Source: a virus. From it: a stretch of DNA of 64,000 bases. Position numbers and translations under genes: made by a program. The notes beneath the pieces were generated by a model that worked only from the letters and a program-made list of their open reading frames with translations, had not been told where the DNA came from and did not search any database. Shown piece after piece: positions 703 to 42,258 of this stretch. The stretch lies in IMG/VR virus record IMGVR_UViG_3300044701_002789, positions 124,001 through 188,000 of that record. One strand, given 5' to 3'. How positions within the stretch are numbered: position 1 is the stretch's first letter; each line of letters opens with the position of its first letter.

Positions 703-3700
703 GTAGTTGAATACCCGATATATTTTAATCTATTAAATCTTTGGATCACTGGAGAAGTAGATATTCCATTATATCCATAAGATATGAATTCATTTTCGGT
801 TTTTTCAGTTGAAGAAGAAATTCTTCCCCAACTATATTCGCCATAAAAATCACTGAATCCTAATCCGGTCAAATTATTATATGAAGATACTCCAACAATT
901 ACTTTGGCAACATATGTTATTCCAATGCCCGGAACTGATGTTTGTGCGATGGAAACTGAAGCAACTTGATAAGTATTATCTATAAAACTATTTCCTATAG
1001 ATAATACATTTCCCGATAAATCTAAAGATTTTAAACCATTACCGAGATTGGAATTTTTAACTATAAAATAATAACCAGTTTGAATACCACTAATTCCCGT
1101 TGTTGCTATCCCCACTTTTACTATATCAGTATCTCTCAAAACCGAATCTTGAGGAATGAATAAATCAAACACAATACCTGTTAATGCGGCACCAACTGAT
1201 ATTGTTGAAATTCCAGTAATAACACCAAAATCTCCTTCATATGAAATATTATCTAAAATTTCGTATTTTGGAGATGGAGACTCAAAAAGAATTTCTGGTG
1301 GTTGCATTTGATCATAACCAAACCCTCCCGTTGATATTGAAACCGAAGATACAGATCCATTTGTAATAAAAGACTGTGCTTGTGCTCTACCGGTAGTTCC
1401 CAACCCAATTGGATTGCTTATAGAAATTGATGGATCAGTGCTATACCCTATACCACCATCATTAATAATAATAGATGAAATAGTTCCTGAAGATGAAACA
1501 ATTGCTGTTGCTGCGGCAGAAGTCACAGAGTCTTGAGATATTATAATAATTTTATTTTGTGGTTTTTCATTTACCCCGTTATGGAAATATTCTTTTTCAC
1601 TATCAAAGAAAGTCTTAACACTTTCCACAAAAATGATGTCAGTACCTAATCCGACATTTTGAATTATATTTGTTGTTGGATATATGTAAGGTTCATAATA
1701 TACCCTATCTTTTCCGACATAATTTCCATTAATAATCTTATCTTCAGTTTGTTTGCACCATAAAACTGGTCTAAAACGAGTAGACTCTCTATCTATTCCT
1801 TGATCATTATAGAAGTTGGTTTTAGTAGTATCTACGTTAGTTATAGATTCTATAATTCTAGTTTTTTCTTGATATAATGGATCATCACTATTAATTGTTA
1901 GTTCATCCCCAATTTTAACAGTTTCTAAAATATCAAAATTAAATGTATCTACATTACTAGTTCCGGTGTAAAAAATTATTGAACACTTATCTTCTGGTTT
2001 TGGAGATTCTGTAAATTCAATTATACTGCCCCCATTAAAAACATAACCTTCGCCAGGAACTTGTAAAATATCGTTCACAAATACTAATAGTGTTGATTGT
2101 ATATCAATATTAGATCCTTTTTTAGATACTATAGATACTAGATTTCCATCAATTGATATTGGAAATCTTTTTCTAGTGCCATCAAATAAATCTTCAAAAG
2201 AATCTAAAATTTGTAGACCCCCGACAGTCCAAGCAGAGAAACTATCACTAAAAATGGAATCAACAAAAATTTTAAATTCCACAAAATTTGAAGTGGTTGG
2301 TATTCCAGTTTGCCCACCAATATCTATAGTTAAAACATCACCCTTTTTATATCCATATCCAAGGTTCTTGAATTCAAAATCTACAACATTAGATGATTGT
2401 CCTACAATTATATTTACTGTGGCCTCTGTGCCAATACCAATGGATCCAGAATCATTACTATAAACTAAAGGTATATCTGTATATGAATATGGAGGATCAA
2501 AAACAACATCTGGTGGATTAGTGGATGTATAACCAGAACCAGGATTAGTTATAGTTACGCTAACAACTTCTCCGTTAATTATAGAAGCAATTCCAACTAC
2601 TTCAGATTCATAATCTGAAGAATCGGTTTTTAATACTGAAACATTCACTGATGTTTGTATTCCTGGTCTATATCCAGATCCAGTATTGTTTATTAGGATA
2701 GATTGTATAGTTCCACTTGAAGATACAACAGGTTTACCTCCAGCAGAAACTAATGGTTGATATCCAAATCCCTCAGAAGATCCAACAGATAATATAATTC
2801 CACCCTTAGGCAAACTAATTATTCTTGAATCATATGTAGTTGATTCTGGACTATTAACTTTTATGGTAGTTATGCCAGCATTTTCGGTTAAAACGTAAGA
2901 TAATTCTGGATATTGAACGGCACTGTTAACTAAGACTATAGCATTATCTGTTGATATTCCGGTAATATTTGAACTATCATACTTTAATTCAAAAGTAGAT
3001 TTTATGGTATTGAATTCACTAGAAATATCATCTATAATTTTATTATTAATATAAGTATCATCATTAGAATTAGAAATACCAGACCTCAAAAATACTCTAC
3101 CATTGAATCTGGAACTTATTTCTAGTCCAAAATAATCTATTTCATCAAATCTGGCATTGGGGTTTGAAACGGGAACTTTACCAAATGGTGCCTCTGAAAA
3201 ATAAATTTTATTATCAACTATATTATAGTTTCCCTTTACTTTGAATACAGTGGAATTTTTTGGGTGAGAAGAAATTCCTGTTCCCAATAGAGATCTATCT
3301 ACAAGTAAAACATTTTTAATTGGCGAATCTACGGCTCGGATTAACATTATTTCATTATTTACTTTAATTAAATCGCCACCAAATAAATCTTCAGAATCAT
3401 CAACACTAAGATATAAATTTATCCTACTCATAGAAGTTGTTAATCCAGCAGTTGTTGATGTAGAAACAATAGGAGATTGTATTACATTATCAATTGCAAT
3501 CAAAGATTTTTCATTTCTCTTTTTGGAAATGAATTTATGTTCAGTACCAATTCCCAAATTTGTAAAATTCAAAACATCTGGAATGCTTTGTAAAGATTGT
3601 GACGCAGAAGCAGAAACTCTAACTTTAATATCACTATCCTTTACAATATATAATGTTGTTGGTAATTTATCAGTTACACCTATTCCAGATATAAATGTTG

Positions 3701-6700
3701 GCGTAATCTCTATCGCATTTTCGGAGGAAGTATCTGAATTGTTGTATCTATATTCTATTTCTTCGCCAGTAGTGAAGAAATGGTACGACAATAATACAGA
3801 ACTGTCATTAATATTAACGACTTCAGAACTAGATGCATTAAATACCTTCTCAAATATTGTACTTCCTTTATATGTTAGGTTAAATTCTTTTCTAATATCT
3901 AAACTAGTTCCAAAATATTCTCCATATCCAGAACTTAAAGTATAATTATTTAAATCTAAAATATTAGGATTATTATACGCATCATCAAATCTACCAAGAG
4001 ACATTTGGAAGTATGTAACTTTTACGTCAATATTTGGATTTGGAGTAAAAAGTAAATTATATGAATCTGTACCATAAGTATTATCCGCACTATAAACGCC
4101 AATATTTGTATCCGTATTTAATATACCATACTCTGTCACTAAAAGTTCACCACTAATTTCATCTTTTAATGTTATAATTTCGGAAATACTATATTCATTA
4201 TTGGTAAGATCATGAACCAAAGATATGATATATGATGTCTCACAATTATTTGGCATACTTACTGCCACTGAGGGAAAAGGTAAAGAATTTGCTGCAATAA
4301 AAATAGATCCAGATGCTATTGTTCCTTCTCTGAAGTCTAGGTAGGATACAGTATTTGGGGAATCATTTCCTATAGAAATTGCTGATGTGTTAACAACAAA
4401 AGATACTCCAGAACCTACATTTGTTTTTATATCTAATATTAATTCATTATTAGAAATATATGCATTGTAAGTTGCGATACCAACCCCAGAATTTTCTAAT
4501 AACGAAGAAGTATTAAATTGTCCATATTCCAAAACAGAAACATCAACATCATTGTGTAATAGAGTTAGTTCATGAACTTCATAATAGGCATCATTGGGTA
4601 TAGTATCATCATAACTTCTAATATGTACTAATACCTTAGATCCTTTATATGAAGTTGGTATTCCAACAATCTTAGTGGTAACACCATCCGTTACATTTGT
4701 TTGTGTAGTTATTAATGTAGGATCATTTCCGAATGAAGTTTGTCCAATACCAGTGATAGTATTATATAAATCAAAACTTATATAACTTACATCATATGAT
4801 CCAAAATCAAACTTTTTGGGGAAAAATAACAAATTACCAAATGATCCAGACCTTCTAAACTCAAAATATCCAAGATCAGAGATATTTCCTACTACACCAT
4901 ATTGACTCAAATAACCAAATTCATTATTTTGAATTAATGAAACCATTGATGATTGTTTAAAATCTACAAATACCTTATCTCTAATAAAAATAAAATACTT
5001 TTTGTATATATTTTCCAAATCAAAAGAATCAACAACACTGTAAATATCTGATCTTGGATTACTATTGAAAGTGTCCGATAGATCATCTATTACTAGAACT
5101 CTATTTCCAATAGATTCAATATAATCTTGAATAAATTTGCTATTAAAAATTATTTGATCAGTTACTGATTCATTATTAATGGTAATATTATTTTCTTTAA
5201 CCAAATCAAAATCATGATAACAATTTAAATCTACAATTTGGTTAATATGAGAAATGCCCACAAAATCACTTTGGTTTTGTTCAGTTGAAATGCCAGTATA
5301 ATCTGATTTTGAGTCTATAACTAAACTACCAAATTTTTTAAATCCTGATGTGTGATTTAAATTACTTACATATGGATTCCATGTCTCATAATCAATATTT
5401 GATTTTAAGTCATAAGAAAAATATTGATAATAATTACTATCATGTATTCTTTGTGTAGTATTGTTCAAGAATCCAGTTTCCCTTTCCCATCCCTCTTCAC
5501 CCATAAAATTGGAATTTATATTATATACTGAATTAAATGTTGTAACTGATTTAATTTGCGCAACTGAGTTAGACGATGTTCCCTTTAAAATATCACCGGG
5601 GTTAAACTTATCTTTACTGGATATTTTCAATATATTATTGAAAAGATCTATACTCTGTATTTTCCCCTTTGAAGATCCACTTTCAATAGATTCATTAATA
5701 TAAAATTCTTTTTTCTTTGTATTTACTCTAAATGATGGTAAATATTTTTCTGGAATTATTTTACCCGAGGAATTAAATGAATCAAATTGTCCAGGATTAT
5801 CATTACCACTCAAATATTTTGAAATATTATATGTCACAGATCCGCCAGATCCACCAATATTTTTATCAACAGAAGTTATTTCAAATAATTGATAATCATA
5901 ATCAGAAGAATTATATCCTTTACCATCACTACTTATACCAACACTAATATTTTCTATAAAAACTTTATCGCCAATATCAAATGGGAAATCCTGCTCTCTA
6001 CTAAATCCAGGATTTAATATTACAGTTACATTTTTTGTAATGTTATTATAAGAAATGTTTCTTATATCAATACCATTACTATTATTTACTGGTATTATTT
6101 TTGGTATATAATCACTAATGCCTAGTGTATTTTTTATGATAGTTACTTTTCTATTTCTAATATCATAATCTAATTCAAGATCTTCTATAATTTTATTCGT
6201 ATATCCATCAATCAGGATTAATTTTGGAGGTATAGTATAATTTTTACCAGGCAATAAAACTTCCACATTATCTACTAATGAAATATTTTCAACTTCAAAA
6301 AGAAGTGGTTGTATTGAAGTTGGGCGAATTGTAAAATCAGAAGAATAATCAAATGAAACATCTAATTTTTTAGTTTTTAAAATAGAACCTATAGACTTAC
6401 TATTTAATTTTAAAACCGCACCATATCCATTATCGGAAGATATTGATTTTACAAATGGTACGGATTTATAATTAGATCCACCGGAAAATATTTTTATATC
6501 AGATATTTCGCCTGAACAATTTTTAGAATTTGTTGTATAGTAAAGTGATGAATTATTGGTATTATACTCCGATTTTTCTGGATTTCCAATTAAGTTAAAA
6601 TTAAACGATGTTGTAGATATTCCAACTATAGTGTGATTCCCATTCAATAGACTTTCATTGAATGAAATTTTGTTTGCTTCAATAACATCAGTATCGGAAA

Positions 6701-36181: not shown

Positions 36182-36242
36182 ATCATAGAGCATTTGGGGA
36201 GACATGTAAAGTGGGGGTTGTGACAGTTTTGAAGGTGTCCTT
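36182..36242 (-). promoter_or_regulatory. Box/-10 cassette for 35931
   Basis: -10 TATGAT (36182-36187); 31-bp gap; box from 36219 (TGTGACAGTT-TTGA-AGGTGTCCTT). Confidence 0.65.
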
Positions 36243-36906
36243 ATGCTATTCTTTCTCTTTTGGAAGTATCTATACCTTTTGCTCTCTGATACATTGTAAG
36301 TGCTCCTGCATTTGTAATGTAACCAGTTTCTAGACATTTCCATTTTTGGGAATTTGTTTTAATGGATCCGAGTTTACCTGCTTTTGATCCATATTTTTTG
36401 CCATTTTCTATTCTTTGTTCTTTAGTGAGACCGCATATTCCAATTTTTCTATCTTTACACATTTGTCCTACTTTTTCCCCCACCATTTTTCCTCCAATTT
36501 TACCACCTATTTTACCACCTTTTCTACCATTTTCACTTAATTGTTCTTTGGTCAAAGAATGAACTCCTATTTTAAGTTCTGCTGCCCTTTTTCCATGCTT
36601 CAATCCACTTCTTCTACAAACATCCAAAGAAAATTTTCCACCACATCTTTGGTTTAAGCACAAAGGATCATTTAGAAATGGTCTAATTAACCGTTCCTCA
36701 ACTTCCCTACATTCAATATACCCTTTATCACTATACTCAAAAAATTGAAGTATCTGTTTCTTTGGAGTATAGAATTTCCAACACCACTTATGAGTTGTGG
36801 GAGATCCCCAATATTCTTGATTATAATACTTTTCTTTCTTACTACCATAATAGTAATAAGGAACCTCTTCAAAGGTAATCTTGTATGTATAAATGCGTGG
36901 TTGCAT
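36241..36906 (-). CDS. GIY-YIG-like homing endonuclease (221 aa)
   Basis: YTYKITFEEVPYYYYGSKK is a GIY-YIG-type start with YYYYG in place of YIG. CWKFYTPKKQILQFFEYSDK and a EVEERLIRP segment follow. The middle is Gly/Lys repeats with LTKEQ(L/R)xENGRKGG units (NUMOD3-like). The C-terminal KWKCLETGYITNAGALTMYQ nearly equals the end of 29425, showing a shared recognition module. Late promoter just upstream. Confidence 0.88.
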   Translation of the reverse strand: MQPRIYTYKITFEEVPYYYYGSKKEKYYNQEYWGSPTTHKWCWKFYTPKKQILQFFEYSDKGYIECREVEERLIRPFLNDPLCLNQRCGGKFSLDVCRRSGLKHGKRAAELKIGVHSLTKEQLSENGRKGGKIGGKIGGKMVGEKVGQMCKDRKIGICGLTKEQRIENGKKYGSKAGKLGSIKTNSQKWKCLETGYITNAGALTMYQRAKGIDTSKRERIA

Positions 36907-37025: not shown

Positions 37026-37838
37026 TTATTTATCAGTGGGGAAAAACTGAAGAGGAGTACCGTTCACGATTAGGATTTTCTGAATACTTCCATTATTGAA
37101 AGCCGCCTTCAAAATCTCATTTCTCTGGTACTCAAGAGATTGTGCCGATACAGTAGATGCAAGTGCTTTATTTTCCTCTGCCTTGAGTTGAGCAGTCTGA
37201 GTTTTAACTTGCTGTTCTTTATTTGCACTCTGAGCAGCAACCACACGATTTACGGCAGCAACCAAGTCTTCGGGTAGGTCTGCTTTCACAACAACCACAG
37301 ATTCAATTTGAATTTTACCTGCAAGATTGTTCTTTTCTAAAGACAGATTCAGGTTATTCTTGATTGTGTCTTGGATCTTATCAAGACTGGAATTTACTTC
37401 CAGTGCAGGATATTCATCGACTGATTGATTCACCGCAGAAGTAATCAAACGCTTAATGAAACTAGACATTAGTTCAATTTGACCATTTTGACTGACTCCA
37501 TGGTTACTCATGTCGTAACCAGTATAAAAGTCATAGAGACTCGTGGGTGACAGACTATAAGTAACAACAACATCCATATCTTTCATAATGGTGTTGTCTT
37601 TGGTTTTAGGGGTCAGGTCATTTGATTGAACTGTAATTTTACGAGTGTTGAAGACCTTAATTGAACCAAATCCATCATATCGGATTCCTGGCTGAATAAT
37701 CTCATTCTTTACCTGGCCATCGAATCCGATGTATAATCCATTCTCCCCAGTATTGACCGTAGTAAATTGACCAGCAGTGAGAATAAGGGCAAGGGCAGCA
37801 GCACCAACACCCAGAGCAATTTTAGGACCAGCAGACAT
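37026..37838 (-). CDS. SPFH / prohibitin-like membrane protein (270 aa)
   Basis: N-terminal membrane anchor (KIALGVGAAALALILTAGQF), then ENGLYIGFDGQVKNEIIQPG and the SPFH/Band 7 core: MKDMDVVVTYSLSPTSLYDF, FIKRLITSAVNQSVDEYPAL and VESVVVVKADLPEDLVAAVN. The C-terminal helix is Ala/Gln/Lys-rich (SANKEQQVKTQTAQLKAEEN) like prohibitins. Phage prohibitin homologues are known in cyanophages but their role is unclear; membrane scaffolding is inferred. It begins a run of membrane-protein genes up to 38424. Confidence 0.9.
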   Translation of the reverse strand: MSAGPKIALGVGAAALALILTAGQFTTVNTGENGLYIGFDGQVKNEIIQPGIRYDGFGSIKVFNTRKITVQSNDLTPKTKDNTIMKDMDVVVTYSLSPTSLYDFYTGYDMSNHGVSQNGQIELMSSFIKRLITSAVNQSVDEYPALEVNSSLDKIQDTIKNNLNLSLEKNNLAGKIQIESVVVVKADLPEDLVAAVNRVVAAQSANKEQQVKTQTAQLKAEENKALASTVSAQSLEYQRNEILKAAFNNGSIQKILIVNGTPLQFFPTDK

Positions 37839-38449: not shown

Positions 38450-38509
38450 AGTTTAACCGATAAAGGGGCACCTGTAAAGTACCCCTGTGACAGTTCAGTT
38501 ACTGGCGCG
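38450..38509 (-). promoter_or_regulatory. Box/hairpin/-10 cassette for the membrane cluster
   Basis: -10 candidate TAAACT (38450-38455); 30-bp gap with GGGGTACTTTACAGGTGCCCC hairpin (mismatched); box from 38486 (TGTGACAGTT on +) with the stop of 38495. Confidence 0.55.
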
Positions 38510-38890
38510 GTTGCTCAGGGCAAGTTCAACACGCTCGTCAATCTTGGAGAGGATGTAGTTCTCAAGATGACTGTCAATATCGTTCTTGATCTCGTCCATG
38601 ACTTCACGCTTGATGGTAGGAATTTGGTAACGCTTGTGATAATTCAGGATGCGTGTGTAAAAACCACGATCGGAAAGAAATTCTTTTACCATGCGCTCAA
38701 CTTCAGATGCGCCAAGCATTTCAATTTGACGCGAACGAACTTCTTCATGCAGATAACTGATTGCAGTGAGAAGATTGTCAAGTTGAACCAGTTGCTCATT
38801 GACGTTCACTTGGGCAACTTCGTTAGCAACAGGAGTCTCAGTAGCGGTCATTTGGGTGGTTTCTTTGATGGTGGAAGTAACAGTGCTCAT
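38495..38890 (-). CDS. Hypothetical protein downstream of the E1-like gene (131 aa)
   Basis: MSTVTSTIKETTQMTATETP, then helical VQLDNLLTAISYLHEEVRSR, QIEMLGASEVERMVKEFLSD and a long charged C-terminal helix. It follows the E1-like gene by 2 nt, so it is co-transcribed, and could belong to the ubiquitin-like pathway or merely share the transcript. No motif. Confidence 0.7.
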   Translation of the reverse strand: MSTVTSTIKETTQMTATETPVANEVAQVNVNEQLVQLDNLLTAISYLHEEVRSRQIEMLGASEVERMVKEFLSDRGFYTRILNYHKRYQIPTIKREVMDEIKNDIDSHLENYILSKIDERVELALSNRASN

Positions 38891-38892
38891 GA

Positions 38893-39606
38893 TCAGGAAA
38901 CGGAGGTGGTAAGAGTACGAAGGTTGAAGAACATGCCGCTTTGCTGCGGATTGATCATTTCATCCAGGACGTTCTGGATGACCGACAGAGTGATTGCTGC
39001 CGCCATGAAGTTGGCAGAGATCAGTTGAGGGCGGGAGGGCGCCTGAGTGGCGCATGACCCCTTGTGAGGGACCGAATCTTCTGGGTTCTCAATGTTGGGA
39101 TACACCAGAGAAGGATTCAGACCGATGCTTTGACCACCGACACGTCCGAACCAAAGAGTTTGACCCTTGACAGTTTCAGTACCATCGGAATTGCCTGGAG
39201 TGATGAAGAAGAAGTCTTTATCTTCACAAGCAGAAGAAATAGCAGCGATAATGTCCTTGCGAGTCGCGTCATTGTCAACGGAACACACAATCATAGGGCA
39301 ATTGGACCTACGCAGAAGAGGAATGAAGGATGTCATAGAAATATAATCATCCTTGTAATCAACGTTAGACAGACCCTGGTAACTACAGAAGTCCATCATT
39401 GCTCGCGCTTTGTTGAGTCCAAGTTGCGCTTCGCCAACGATCTGGCGAGTCATGTTGCTTTCCTCAAACTCATCACCATCAATGAACACAACTTTGGCGT
39501 CCTTGGTGGAAGGATGATAGGCAACAAGACGGGCGAGAGGGGAGGAAATGTAACCTCCAGTACCTCCAACACCAATCACGAAAACATAATCAGGAGAAAA
39601 GGTCAT
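38893..39606 (-). CDS. ThiF/E1-like ubiquitin-activating family protein
   Basis: 237 aa. Residues 11-18 IGVGGTGG are the ATP-binding loop. VVFIDGDEFEESNMTRQIVG (residues 39-58) is the E1 block with Asp and Arg finger. NKARAM and SVDNDATR follow. SCATQAP around C185 is the candidate catalytic Cys, after HKGS. The size and layout match the PRTRC-type ThiF protein. It would adenylate the C-terminus of the Ubl at 41865. Its promoter cassette is at 39629. Confidence 0.88.
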   Translation of the reverse strand: MTFSPDYVFVIGVGGTGGYISSPLARLVAYHPSTKDAKVVFIDGDEFEESNMTRQIVGEAQLGLNKARAMMDFCSYQGLSNVDYKDDYISMTSFIPLLRRSNCPMIVCSVDNDATRKDIIAAISSACEDKDFFFITPGNSDGTETVKGQTLWFGRVGGQSIGLNPSLVYPNIENPEDSVPHKGSCATQAPSRPQLISANFMAAAITLSVIQNVLDEMINPQQSGMFFNLRTLTTSVS

Positions 39607-39628
39607 AGGTGGAATTGACTACAGATCA

Positions 39629-39687
39629 ATAATAAGGGATGAGAGGGTGGTTTGGAAAGGATGTGTGTCAGTATCTCAACTGGCACA
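39629..39687 (-). promoter_or_regulatory. Box/-10 cassette for the E1-like gene
   Basis: -10 TATTAT (39629-39634); 29-bp gap without a strong hairpin; box 39664-39687 (TGTGTCAGTA-TCTC-AACTGGCACA) containing the stop of the E2 candidate gene. Confidence 0.7.
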
Positions 39688-40764
39688 CACGAAGGACTCG
39701 TCGAGTTGACCAATCAGATACCCTTCTGTAGAAACATACCACTGACGACCGACAGAATCTTCCATGGTCACGAAACCAAGATAAAGATCATCACCTCGTT
39801 GAATGCTGGAAGTGCGGGCAGGGACGATCATAACGTGCGGAAGTTGGGGGAGAGGTTTAAATCCTGCCATAAGCATGGTGAAGAATGCCTGAACATCCGT
39901 ATCTGCGGAGATCATGATTAGAGTATCATAACCGGCGCAAAGAAAGGTGTCATTCTCCAGTTTTTTAAACGATGTTTTCCTAGAACTGTGTTTACGCATA
40001 TCTTCACAATTGCTTGCAAAAGATTGCAGATTGAGAAGATCGTTATTTGTTTGGGAAGAAAAATAAGAAGTTGAGATCTCACGAAGATTCCTTGGTCGCG
40101 TATAATCATACTGATTATCGCTGGTGGTTACGCTTCCCCAACAAATAGGACCACCAAGATAACTTCCCCATTCACCACCGTAGACATTAGAAACCGAAAG
40201 TTTTTTAGTTGCAACTACTTGATTGTTGTCGTCAACTTTACCGGCACAAAGATATGCTGTGTCGTTAATTTTCTCAAAGAGAAGATCTTTATTATTATGA
40301 GAAATATGACATTCAAAAACCATATTGGAGACGCTCACATAATCGGCATCATTATCACTTTCATCATATACATTGCCCTCTGGACAAGTACCAACCCAGT
40401 GACGAAAGGGCCGCTGCCAACCAGCATAAAAAACGCTACATTCATTGATGTTTGGATCCCTGGCGATTTTTTCATAGGCATTCCAGTTAATATCAATGCC
40501 GTAAGGACCGTCTTCTACAATATCTGGATAAGTATCCATAATATATTGACGACTATTTCTACGACACCCGATACAATTGGATTCATAGAAACAATTGATT
40601 CGCTGAGTCTCACTATTGGCAACTTTGAACCTAGCAAAACCATTAGGCATCCATGCTTTCAGGCGAATCATATCAGGTTGAACCTGATAACTAATAAACT
40701 CAGACTGAGTAGGCAGAGAGTGAATATGAACTTTGGCGGGTTCGGTAGGAAAAATAGCAGACAT
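39676..40764 (-). CDS. Candidate E2-like (UBC-fold) protein, Cys-rich (362 aa)
   Basis: NVYGGEWGSYLGGPICWGSV (residues 194-213) contains a Gly-Pro-Ile-Cys (C208) in the same setting as the G-x-I-C block before the catalytic Cys of bacterial E2-like/PRTRC-B proteins, followed by YFSSQTNNDLL. Earlier Cys-rich ESNCIGCRRN may bind metal. The C-terminal half (LPQLPHVMIVPARTSS, QRGDDLYLGFVTMEDSVGRQ) is a separate module. Assignment as E2 rests on motif and on the position between JAMM and E1 genes. Start overlaps the JAMM stop (TGATG). Confidence 0.6.
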   Translation of the reverse strand: MSAIFPTEPAKVHIHSLPTQSEFISYQVQPDMIRLKAWMPNGFARFKVANSETQRINCFYESNCIGCRRNSRQYIMDTYPDIVEDGPYGIDINWNAYEKIARDPNINECSVFYAGWQRPFRHWVGTCPEGNVYDESDNDADYVSVSNMVFECHISHNNKDLLFEKINDTAYLCAGKVDDNNQVVATKKLSVSNVYGGEWGSYLGGPICWGSVTTSDNQYDYTRPRNLREISTSYFSSQTNNDLLNLQSFASNCEDMRKHSSRKTSFKKLENDTFLCAGYDTLIMISADTDVQAFFTMLMAGFKPLPQLPHVMIVPARTSSIQRGDDLYLGFVTMEDSVGRQWYVSTEGYLIGQLDESFVCAS

Positions 40765-41801
40765 CAGTTCACCTCCATGAGATCAAGTTCAAGTTCCGCT
40801 TCAATGTCGGAACAAATTTGGGTCAGAAGAGTCATCAGATTAGATTTCTCTTCAATGTCGCCACGATTTTGCTTCAGGAAATCAGTGATAGAATCTTCAA
40901 TGTTCCAGAGTTTGACTGTTTTTTTCTGGGCAGATTCAACAGCGTTCCAGTAATCATCAATTGATTCAAACTCAGTCCAATCAACAGAATCCTGATAATG
41001 GAAAGGATCCTTGTAGTTACTTTGAGTGTTCCTGGAAGTGGGAGGATTAAAACGACTGGGCGCCAGGAAATTGTTGGTGCGCTGTTTTTGACCCTGCCAG
41101 GTGTTGATAATTGTAGTAATCTTGGGTTTCTCAACAGTAACGTAACTCAGAACATCTTCATGATACGAAACATCATCAACAGGAGTAGCGTCAATCAGAT
41201 GGTTGTAATTAACTTTGAACCGACGACCACCAGCAACAACAGACGAAGCAATGGCATAAGACCGTTTGGAAATGTTGATAGAACCAACAACAAGGTGAAT
41301 GCCTGGATCGCCAAGTTCGTACTTGTCATCTGTTCCTGAGAAGAATGCTCCCATAGTGTTATGACTATGAGAAGAACCAACAGGAATCCAACCTACAGGA
41401 GGATATTGAGTAATAGGTTCACCCGTTTCAATATCAATTGCTTCATCAAAACTATCTACACGGACAGAAGCACCACTGACTTCTTGACGAGGAACCAGAA
41501 TACGATATTTGGAAGGATCTTCTTCATTGCGAAGAATACGAACCGAAACCTCAAGAGAAGCGGCAACCTTGTCCACATAGTAGAAGCAAAGTTGAACCCA
41601 TCGCTGCCAAAGATCCGCAGGAATCCTATGAATGTTTTCTTTCAGTTCAAAAGTTTTGAGATCATCATTATTGATGATCACATTTGCTTCAGGATCATCA
41701 ATAGGGCGAAGGTATTTGCCCCAACCACCAGTGTAGTATTCAAAACATCCGTCCCGAGGGGTACGAAGAATAGTCGGTTGCTCTTGGATTTCGGTCGTCA
41801 T
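40764..41801 (-). CDS. JAB/JAMM-domain metalloprotease
   Basis: 345 aa. SSHSHNTMGAFFSGTDDKYE gives the JAMM motif H145-x-H147-x7-S155-x2-D158. SLEVSVRI at E84 supplies the usual Glu. GDPGIHLVVGSI then follows, as in JAB folds. The C-terminal ~120 aa is an extension ending in a long helix. In related bacterial systems JAMM proteases trim the Ubl or remove it from targets. The -10-like TACAAT lies only 4 nt before the ATG, so a leaderless transcript or another promoter is needed. Confidence 0.88.
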   Translation of the reverse strand: MTTEIQEQPTILRTPRDGCFEYYTGGWGKYLRPIDDPEANVIINNDDLKTFELKENIHRIPADLWQRWVQLCFYYVDKVAASLEVSVRILRNEEDPSKYRILVPRQEVSGASVRVDSFDEAIDIETGEPITQYPPVGWIPVGSSHSHNTMGAFFSGTDDKYELGDPGIHLVVGSINISKRSYAIASSVVAGGRRFKVNYNHLIDATPVDDVSYHEDVLSYVTVEKPKITTIINTWQGQKQRTNNFLAPSRFNPPTSRNTQSNYKDPFHYQDSVDWTEFESIDDYWNAVESAQKKTVKLWNIEDSITDFLKQNRGDIEEKSNLMTLLTQICSDIEAELELDLMEVN

Positions 41802-41829
41802 GATATTGTAAAGGTCAAGTAGTGGAGTA

Positions 41830-41851
41830 AACCTCCCCCGAAAGGGAGGTT
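41830..41851 (-). terminator. Hairpin between the Ubl and JAMM genes
   Basis: Minus: AACCTCCCTTTCGGGGGAGG TT. Perfect stem, no T-run; may slow or protect rather than stop transcription. Confidence 0.5.
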
Positions 41852-41864
41852 GGGAAAATAGGGA

Positions 41865-42131
41865 TCAGAAACCCTTGTTTTCGGAAGTCACAGCACCACG
41901 AACAGTTTCGCCAGGACGCACGGTGGTTTCGCCAGGAACGATCTCGTTGTTGATCACATAGCGGTTGATGCGAGCAGGATCCACGCCAAGGTTCTCACCG
42001 TACTGGGAGAACAGTTGAGCAACGGTCTTGCCACGGTAGTTGTCGGGAGACACGCTGTAGGTTTCCTCGTTGACCACCAGGGTAACAGGAGCGGAAGCGT
42101 CTTGGGTACGAACGTTGTTGAGGAATTGCAT
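41865..42131 (-). CDS. Ubiquitin-like beta-grasp protein candidate (88 aa)
   Basis: VTLVVNEETYSVSPDNYRGK, TVAQLFSQYGENLGVDPARI, NRYVINNEIVPGETTVRPGE, TVRGAVTSENKGF: the strand-turn-strand-helix-strand order and length (88 aa) fit a Ubl or PRTRC-C-like protein. There is no terminal GG; the C-terminus is KGF, so a trimming step exposing G87 is conceivable. The identification relies on fold-like reading plus the adjacent JAMM, E2-candidate and E1 genes. Confidence 0.65.
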   Translation of the reverse strand: MQFLNNVRTQDASAPVTLVVNEETYSVSPDNYRGKTVAQLFSQYGENLGVDPARINRYVINNEIVPGETTVRPGETVRGAVTSENKGF

Positions 42132-42200
42132 AATAAAAAAGGAAATGAAATGTAAAGGACAGGTGTTTGTCGGTTTGGTGTTTCCCTCACCGACCCCTTA

Positions 42201-42258
42201 AGAATACCACGGAATCCGCTGGGATGTCGTGGAGTGTGCCAGTCTTGTGATTGGCACT
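42201..42258 (-). promoter_or_regulatory. Box/-10 cassette for the Ubl gene
   Basis: -10 TATTCT (42201-42206); 28-bp gap; box 42235-42258 (TGTGCCAGTC-TTGT-GATTGGCACT), a near-perfect dyad. The stretch 42259-42345 holds no gene. Confidence 0.7.

Follow-up and report, generated by a model that had tools for sequence, protein, structure and literature searches.

A gene cassette for probable ubiquitin-like protein conjugation and deconjugation in a large phage, distantly related to bacterial type 6d/PRTRC operons

A 64,000-nucleotide stretch of viral DNA (positions 124,001 to 188,000 of the IMG/VR virus record IMGVR_UViG_3300044701_002789; hereafter, the window) probably carries a phage-encoded cassette for the conjugation and deconjugation of a ubiquitin-like modifier (Ubl), a distant relative of the bacterial type 6d/PRTRC systems. 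Five minus-strand genes form this cassette (38495-42131), coding, in the order of transcription, for the Ubl, a JAMM protease, a protein of the ubiquitin-conjugating enzyme (E2) type, a ubiquitin-activating enzyme (E1) and a fifth protein, with the start of the E2-type gene overlapping the stop of the JAMM gene (Table 1). The order Ubl, JAMM, E2, E1 was conserved among the closest relatives. A first-pass annotation had described four adjacent genes of these kinds, as was indeed observed, and the fifth is here added to the unit; the motifs that it quoted for the E1, the E2 candidate, the JAMM and the Ubl were all found in the translations at the residues it had named.

The E1 displayed the motifs IGVGGTGG (residues 11-18) and FIDGDEFEESNMTRQ, together with the candidate catalytic cysteine C185, which was present in every relative covering the site. 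It matched the NCBIfam model PRTRC_ThiF with 47.3 bits (cut-off 144.75, E = 1.6e-12) and Pfam ThiF above the cut-off, and ThiF/MoeB models were matched as well. A profile built from six E1 sequences found MccB as the best match in PDB, and also UBA5 and the E1s of SUMO and NEDD8. The ATP-site residues G12, G14, D43, D45, N51, K66 and D111 were invariant in the viral homologues. In Vibrio phage D69, the annotated start of the E1 gene (VPHD69_0301; L010:6067-6822) looks too late, as GCGGTG and DGDEVEFKNLSRQN motifs lie in-frame upstream; no ATG, GTG or TTG start was found in this upstream extension.

The JAMM protein matched PRTRC_A with 23.5 bits (cut-off 101.8, E = 3.3e-5) and Prok-JAB with the same E-value, the latter slightly below the cut-off as a single protein and above it in a six-frame search. 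Its signature E...H-x-H-x7-S-x2-D was complete (E84, H145, H147, S155 and D158), including the upstream Glu expected of a JAMM, which was kept in 56/66 relatives; for S155 and D158 the conservation is in part circular, both having been required by the scan pattern that fetched the relatives. The JAMM gene of two relatives is split right at its HSH catalytic motif by a group I intron (Rfam RF00028; L024:6402-6642, E of about 1e-15, and L137:6741-6981, about 1e-14).

The AlphaFold2 (AF2) model of the Ubl, built from a 10-sequence alignment, contained the elements of a beta-grasp fold (predicted local distance difference test, pLDDT, 78.9), and its best match in PDB was an E1-bound NEDD8, with many ubiquitin and SUMO entries, and also the Ubl of ubiquilin, after it (template modelling score of about 0.6). 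The gene ends in aag-ggt-ttc-tga, and E-x-K-G was common to 10/10 aligned Ubls of the window type. Most of these ended precisely at KG, while four extended one or two residues further (F in the window, S in L025, VY in L022 and LG in L139). Remoter phage cassettes had small proteins with C-terminal GTKG, GNKG, AHKG and similar ends, and poly-Ubls were also found, with three repeats in a Vibrio phage D69 protein and five in L027, each repeat being closed by TGTKG and followed by a variable linker. Since K-G is invariant, the tails are varied or absent and poly-Ubl repeats exist, maturation by the JAMM after Lys-Gly is predicted. Two other cassettes contained tandem Ubl genes (L026:2124-2606 and 3754-4080; L041:3264-3455 and 3529-3714).

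Direct hidden Markov model searches with the E2-type protein of the window gave no match in Pfam, NCBIfam, PHROGs or PADLOC, and its family was recognised through intermediates. The E2 homologue of L012 matched Prok-E2_D (PF14460, 3e-11) and PRTRC_B (TIGR03737, 1.2e-9), PRTRC_B was also matched by the homologues of L010 and L011, and Prok-E2_D was matched by 15/28 aligned E2 homologues (best 1e-25). Profile-profile comparisons (hhalign) yielded probabilities of 95.8% with the E2 proteins of other phages and 93.8% with bacterial and plasmid ones, whereas control profiles scored 0.1-0.2%; the bacterial set was gathered with a profile containing phage proteins, which makes this comparison mildly circular. 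In the relatives, the columns of N193 (41/41), C208 (41/41; part of the GGPICWG motif), N240 (40/41) and D242 (39/41) were conserved. A structure model built on IMG/VR relatives only (pLDDT 86, predicted template modelling score 0.80) showed an order of strands, cysteine and helices compatible with a UBC fold. Homology of this protein to the prokaryotic E2 family is thus likely on sequence grounds.

Table 1. Features of the cassette in the window.
Feature	Position	Strand	Basis
E1, 237 amino acids, single adenylation domain	38893..39606	(-)	PRTRC_ThiF 1.6e-12; ThiF above cut-off; PDB profile matches
C185 codon, candidate E1 catalytic cysteine	39052..39054	(-)	55/55 relatives covering the site
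E2-type protein, 362 amino acids, divergent Prok-E2_D/PRTRC_B relative with extra N- and C-terminal parts	39676..40764	(-)	hhalign; homologue matches
C208 codon, candidate E2 catalytic cysteine (N193 codon at 40186-40188)	40141..40143	(-)	both in 41/41 relatives
JAMM/JAB metalloprotease, 345 amino acids	40764..41801	(-)	PRTRC_A 3.3e-5; Prok-JAB 3.3e-5; active-site residues kept
JAMM motif H145-S-H147-x7-S155-x2-D158	41328..41369	(-)	sequence; both His in 71/71 relatives
Ubl, ubiquitin-like modifier precursor, 88 amino acids, ending ...TSENKGF	41865..42131	(-)	AF2 beta-grasp; PDB matches; weak ThiS match (0.006); K-G end in relatives
K86-G87-F88 codons, predicted JAMM cut G87/F88	41868..41876	(-)	sequence; K-G invariant, later residues variable or absent in relatives
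Fifth cassette gene, 131 amino acids	38495..38890	(-)	no family match; homologue directly 3' of E1 in L016, L017, L024 and L025 (BLAST); similar open reading frame in L008

A collection of 80 IMG/VR loci was obtained with the JAMM profile. The E1, JAMM and E2 occurred together in 45/80 loci (37 distinct E1s), most of which had a small KG-ending gene nearby, a count to be read as descriptive, the search expression for such tails having been composed after the tails had been seen. The recurrence of the gene set in independent viral contigs indicates that it is more than a chance arrangement. Another 33/80 loci had the E1 and the JAMM without a detected E2. Small proteins at E2-less viral loci (L053, L057, L062, L074, L079, L080, L088 and similar) had a GG near the C-terminus with one or two further residues behind it (KRGGNQ, KTGGC, KTGGIK), in contrast to the KG ends of the E2-bearing cassettes, and E1 and JAMM loci with tails of the GG type possibly represent a different, E2-less pathway. 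A few of the IMG/VR records may be plasmids and not viruses; one IMG/VR "virus" contig agrees in length (51,102) and range with a contig from a Desulforudis metagenome-assembled genome (L071 and L109), which makes the viral nature of that record doubtful.

Among GenBank phages, the set was found in Salmonella phage Arash, Vibrio phage D69 and Bacillus phage KLEB27-3, and the same JAMM match was obtained in Vibrio phages D181 and D148; no cyanophage matched the E1 in a collection of 50,697 phage records. In a quick tree of the E1s, whose deep joins are unsure owing to long branches, the window belonged to a clade of 11 viral contigs with no bacterial members (support 100), Arash and D69 fell in a second all-viral group (support 97), and the bacterial and plasmid sequences were mostly on separate branches. 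The ratio of nonsynonymous to synonymous substitution rates against relatives was about 0.2-0.4 where computable, with synonymous sites near saturation, and the cassette genes are, by this estimate, under purifying selection.

Products of a related cassette have already been recorded, as the mass spectrometry of Arash particles (PMC10585845) lists those of the E1, JAMM and E2 genes, whose roles were not recognised there. The reported coverages of 77.17% (267/346), 61.41% (253/412) and 76.25% (244/320) fit GenBank gp246 (the E1), gp247 (the JAMM) and gp250 exactly, indicating that the protein numbers of Table 2 in PMC10585845 run one above those of GenBank near the end of the genome. With this one-gene shift, Gp249 of the table (100% coverage) is GenBank gp248, the Arash E2. 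Unique peptides numbered three for the E1, two for the JAMM and five for the E2, comparable to the DNA primase (two) and the DNA ligase (two). The three proteins, present at levels like those of replication enzymes, are thereby shown to be expressed during infection, but not to be packaged. The likely Ubl of Arash is an open reading frame with a GTKG end (L009:107-307), in a frame different from that of gp251c (L009:102-320), whose annotated frame is apparently wrong; because of this difference, the Arash Ubl was probably outside the database used for the proteome search.

From the gene set, the homology, the catalytic residues, the predicted fold of the Ubl and the selection, all of them observed or computed, we infer conjugation and its targets along the following lines. 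The JAMM would cut the Ubl precursor after K86-G87, taking off only F88, as the ends of the relatives suggest; G87 would then be adenylated by the E1 with ATP and passed to C185. From there the Ubl would be transferred to C208 of the E2-type protein, where N193 may occupy the position that Asn has in the HPN motif of eukaryotic E2s, and would finally be joined to an amine, probably that of a lysine, on target proteins of the infected cell, from which the same JAMM could take it off again. Since large phages of unrelated kinds and also large plasmids carry the cassette, its targets are a little more likely to be proteins of the host or cell than a capsid or tail protein belonging to a single phage group.

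Several observations weigh against this proposal. The terminal motif of the Ubl is KG, with one Gly instead of the two of GG, no E3 was found, and the enzymatic activity of every cassette member is a prediction. When PDB and BFVD were searched by Foldseek with the model of the E2, neither a UBC-fold match nor any other significant one was returned, a PDB sequence search with two E2-family profiles matched no solved structure, and the conserved downstream His of type 6d E2s is absent, N240 and D242 being found instead. The first-pass identification of the gene at 39676 as an E2 holds as regards the invariant C208 and the Prok-E2_D/PRTRC_B kinship, whereas the UBC fold, with no Foldseek match, is unproven. 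The other three identifications agree with the results above, namely an E1 at 38893 (PRTRC_ThiF and ThiF matches, invariant C185), a JAMM protease at 40764 (PRTRC_A and Prok-JAB matches, conserved active site) and a beta-grasp Ubl at 41865 (predicted fold, NEDD8 as the best PDB match). Its suggestion that the JAMM would trim the Ubl to expose G87 gains support from relatives that end at KG, extend past it by one or two different residues or form poly-Ubls.

The same genes could instead serve a sulfur-carrier pathway, in which a ThiS/MoaD-like Ubl would be uncapped by the JAMM, adenylated by the E1 and thiocarboxylated, its sulfur going to a metabolite or an RNA base while the E2-like protein acted as acceptor or scaffold. 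JAMM-trimmed sulfur carriers exist, and the ThiF/MoeB matches of the E1 and the weak ThiS match of the Ubl point the same way. We nevertheless regard this pathway as unlikely: at 45 loci the E1 and JAMM come with an E2-type protein whose C208 is invariant, the nine genes scanned included no rhodanese, ThiG, MoaE or cysteine synthase, and both the KG end and the existence of poly-Ubl precursors fit it poorly. The match of the E1 profile to MccB as the top PDB entry, and the small size of the cut product, would suit yet another chemistry, in which the E1 would nucleotidylate a small peptide or protein at its C-terminus, yielding an antimicrobial or signalling compound without protein tagging. 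However, the candidate substrate is a folded beta-grasp domain, C185 is invariant, and the E2-type protein and the JAMM always adjoin the E1 in the window clade, so that we consider this reading very improbable.

A role in counter-defence, with the JAMM stripping CBASS- or Bil-type Ubl tags of the host and the phage Ubl, E1 and E2 being accessory or decoys, would agree with the complete JAMM active site and with the conjugation of Ubls against phages by bacteria (PMC10097602 for CBASS; also Bil). The catalytic residues of the E1 and E2 are nonetheless as conserved as those of the JAMM, the purifying selection estimated for all the genes would be needless for decoys, and the JAMM resembles PRTRC_A and gave no match in PADLOC; this role seems to us less probable than sulfur transfer, though not as remote as the MccB-like chemistry.

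Among the proteins encoded by the parent record of the window (258,362 bases) are a major capsid protein of the T4 type (Gp23, 2.8e-150), a baseplate wedge protein with 59% identity to its counterpart in Synechococcus phage B23 (Kyanoviridae) and a psbA-type protein (3.3e-92), and the virus was therefore taken to be a large T4-like cyanophage, whose hosts, going by the phage type, would be photosynthetic (cyanobacterial). A late-promoter check upstream of the operon found no TATAAATA, and promoter and terminator scans gave signals at the background level. The fifth protein of the cassette is possibly an adaptor. Immediately downstream of the cassette lies a gene for a Band-7/SPFH (stomatin-like) protein (37026-37838, 2.6e-19), and at 36241-36906 there is one for a 221-amino-acid protein with repeated short motifs, which looks like a homing-endonuclease-type gene and has relatives adjoining the cassette in L018, L022 and L024.

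More broadly, and tentatively, several unrelated groups of large phages may tag proteins with Ubls of their own while infecting, through a branch of ubiquitin-like conjugation specific to phages, with single-Gly (Lys-Gly) Ubls, poly-Ubl precursors, maturation by a JAMM and, possibly, carriage in the particle. Such tagging would have been overlooked because trypsin cleaves after the penultimate Lys, and the one Gly left over on the target (+57.02) has the mass of a carbamidomethylation. No description of a phage-encoded E1-E2-Ubl-JAMM set was found in the literature searched, the coverage of which was incomplete and does not establish priority. Bacterial Ubl conjugation is known as an antiphage weapon, and phages possessing all its parts would, if true, mean that bacterial viruses use Ubl conjugation too. 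The presence of the set in cultured phages of Salmonella, Vibrio and Bacillus makes phage protein tagging directly testable, and the old question of the function of the type 6d/PRTRC operons would become directly testable in phage infection.

Compared with known systems, the lambda-type tail assembly pair (TAPI/TAPK) likewise comprises a phage-encoded Ubl-like domain and a JAB protease, but it has no E1 or E2 and sits in tail gene clusters. Bil (BilABCD) also has a Ubl, an E2, a JAMM that trims the Ubl and an E1 as four genes, with two Ubl domains in BilA, a CEHH motif in BilB and two adenylation domains in BilD. The Bil-type kinship raised in the first-pass annotation was abandoned, as the window E2 lacks E and H at the distances from C208 that a CEHH motif would require, the E1 is a one-domain protein of 237 amino acids, there is a single Ubl domain, and PADLOC yielded only weak E1-fold matches; membership of CBASS was rejected too. 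Its PRTRC kinship was upheld, with PRTRC_ThiF matched by the E1, PRTRC_A by the JAMM and Prok-E2_D by about half of the E2 homologues. In PRTRC loci (TIGR03735, TIGR03736, TIGR03737; for example, plasmid locus L096) the E1 and the JAMM are recognisable homologues, PRTRC_B is matched by the E2 homologues of other phages, and the plasmid PRTRC_C has GRKG ahead of its tail. In contrast, PRTRC_B gave no direct match to the window E2, nor PRTRC_C to the window-type Ubls, ParB_N had no match in the 258-kb record, which may be incomplete, and all scores were far under the curated NCBIfam cut-offs, denoting homologues and not members by the curated rule.

The nearest described kind is the bacterial operon type 6d (Iyer, Burroughs and Aravind 2006, PMC1779556), here equated with NCBI PRTRC by composition. 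Both have separate adjacent genes for the Ubl, JAB, E1 and E2 and one extra protein, a conserved Gly at the C-terminus of the Ubl (followed by one residue in the window precursor) and a Cys-bearing E2 without an upstream His. The extra protein of type 6d is alpha-helical with conserved charged residues, and the fifth phage gene, which has a fixed place in the window clade, is at most a candidate for its counterpart. The window set differs in being phage-borne and in its long E2 with extra parts; type 6d E2s have an absolutely conserved His downstream of the Cys, whereas phage E2s have no conserved His column, and six phage JAMM sequences had no invariant Arg or Trp ahead of the core, unlike the type 6d JAB-N, in which both are conserved. 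The window set would thus work like a type 6d/PRTRC system, yet it falls outside formal membership.

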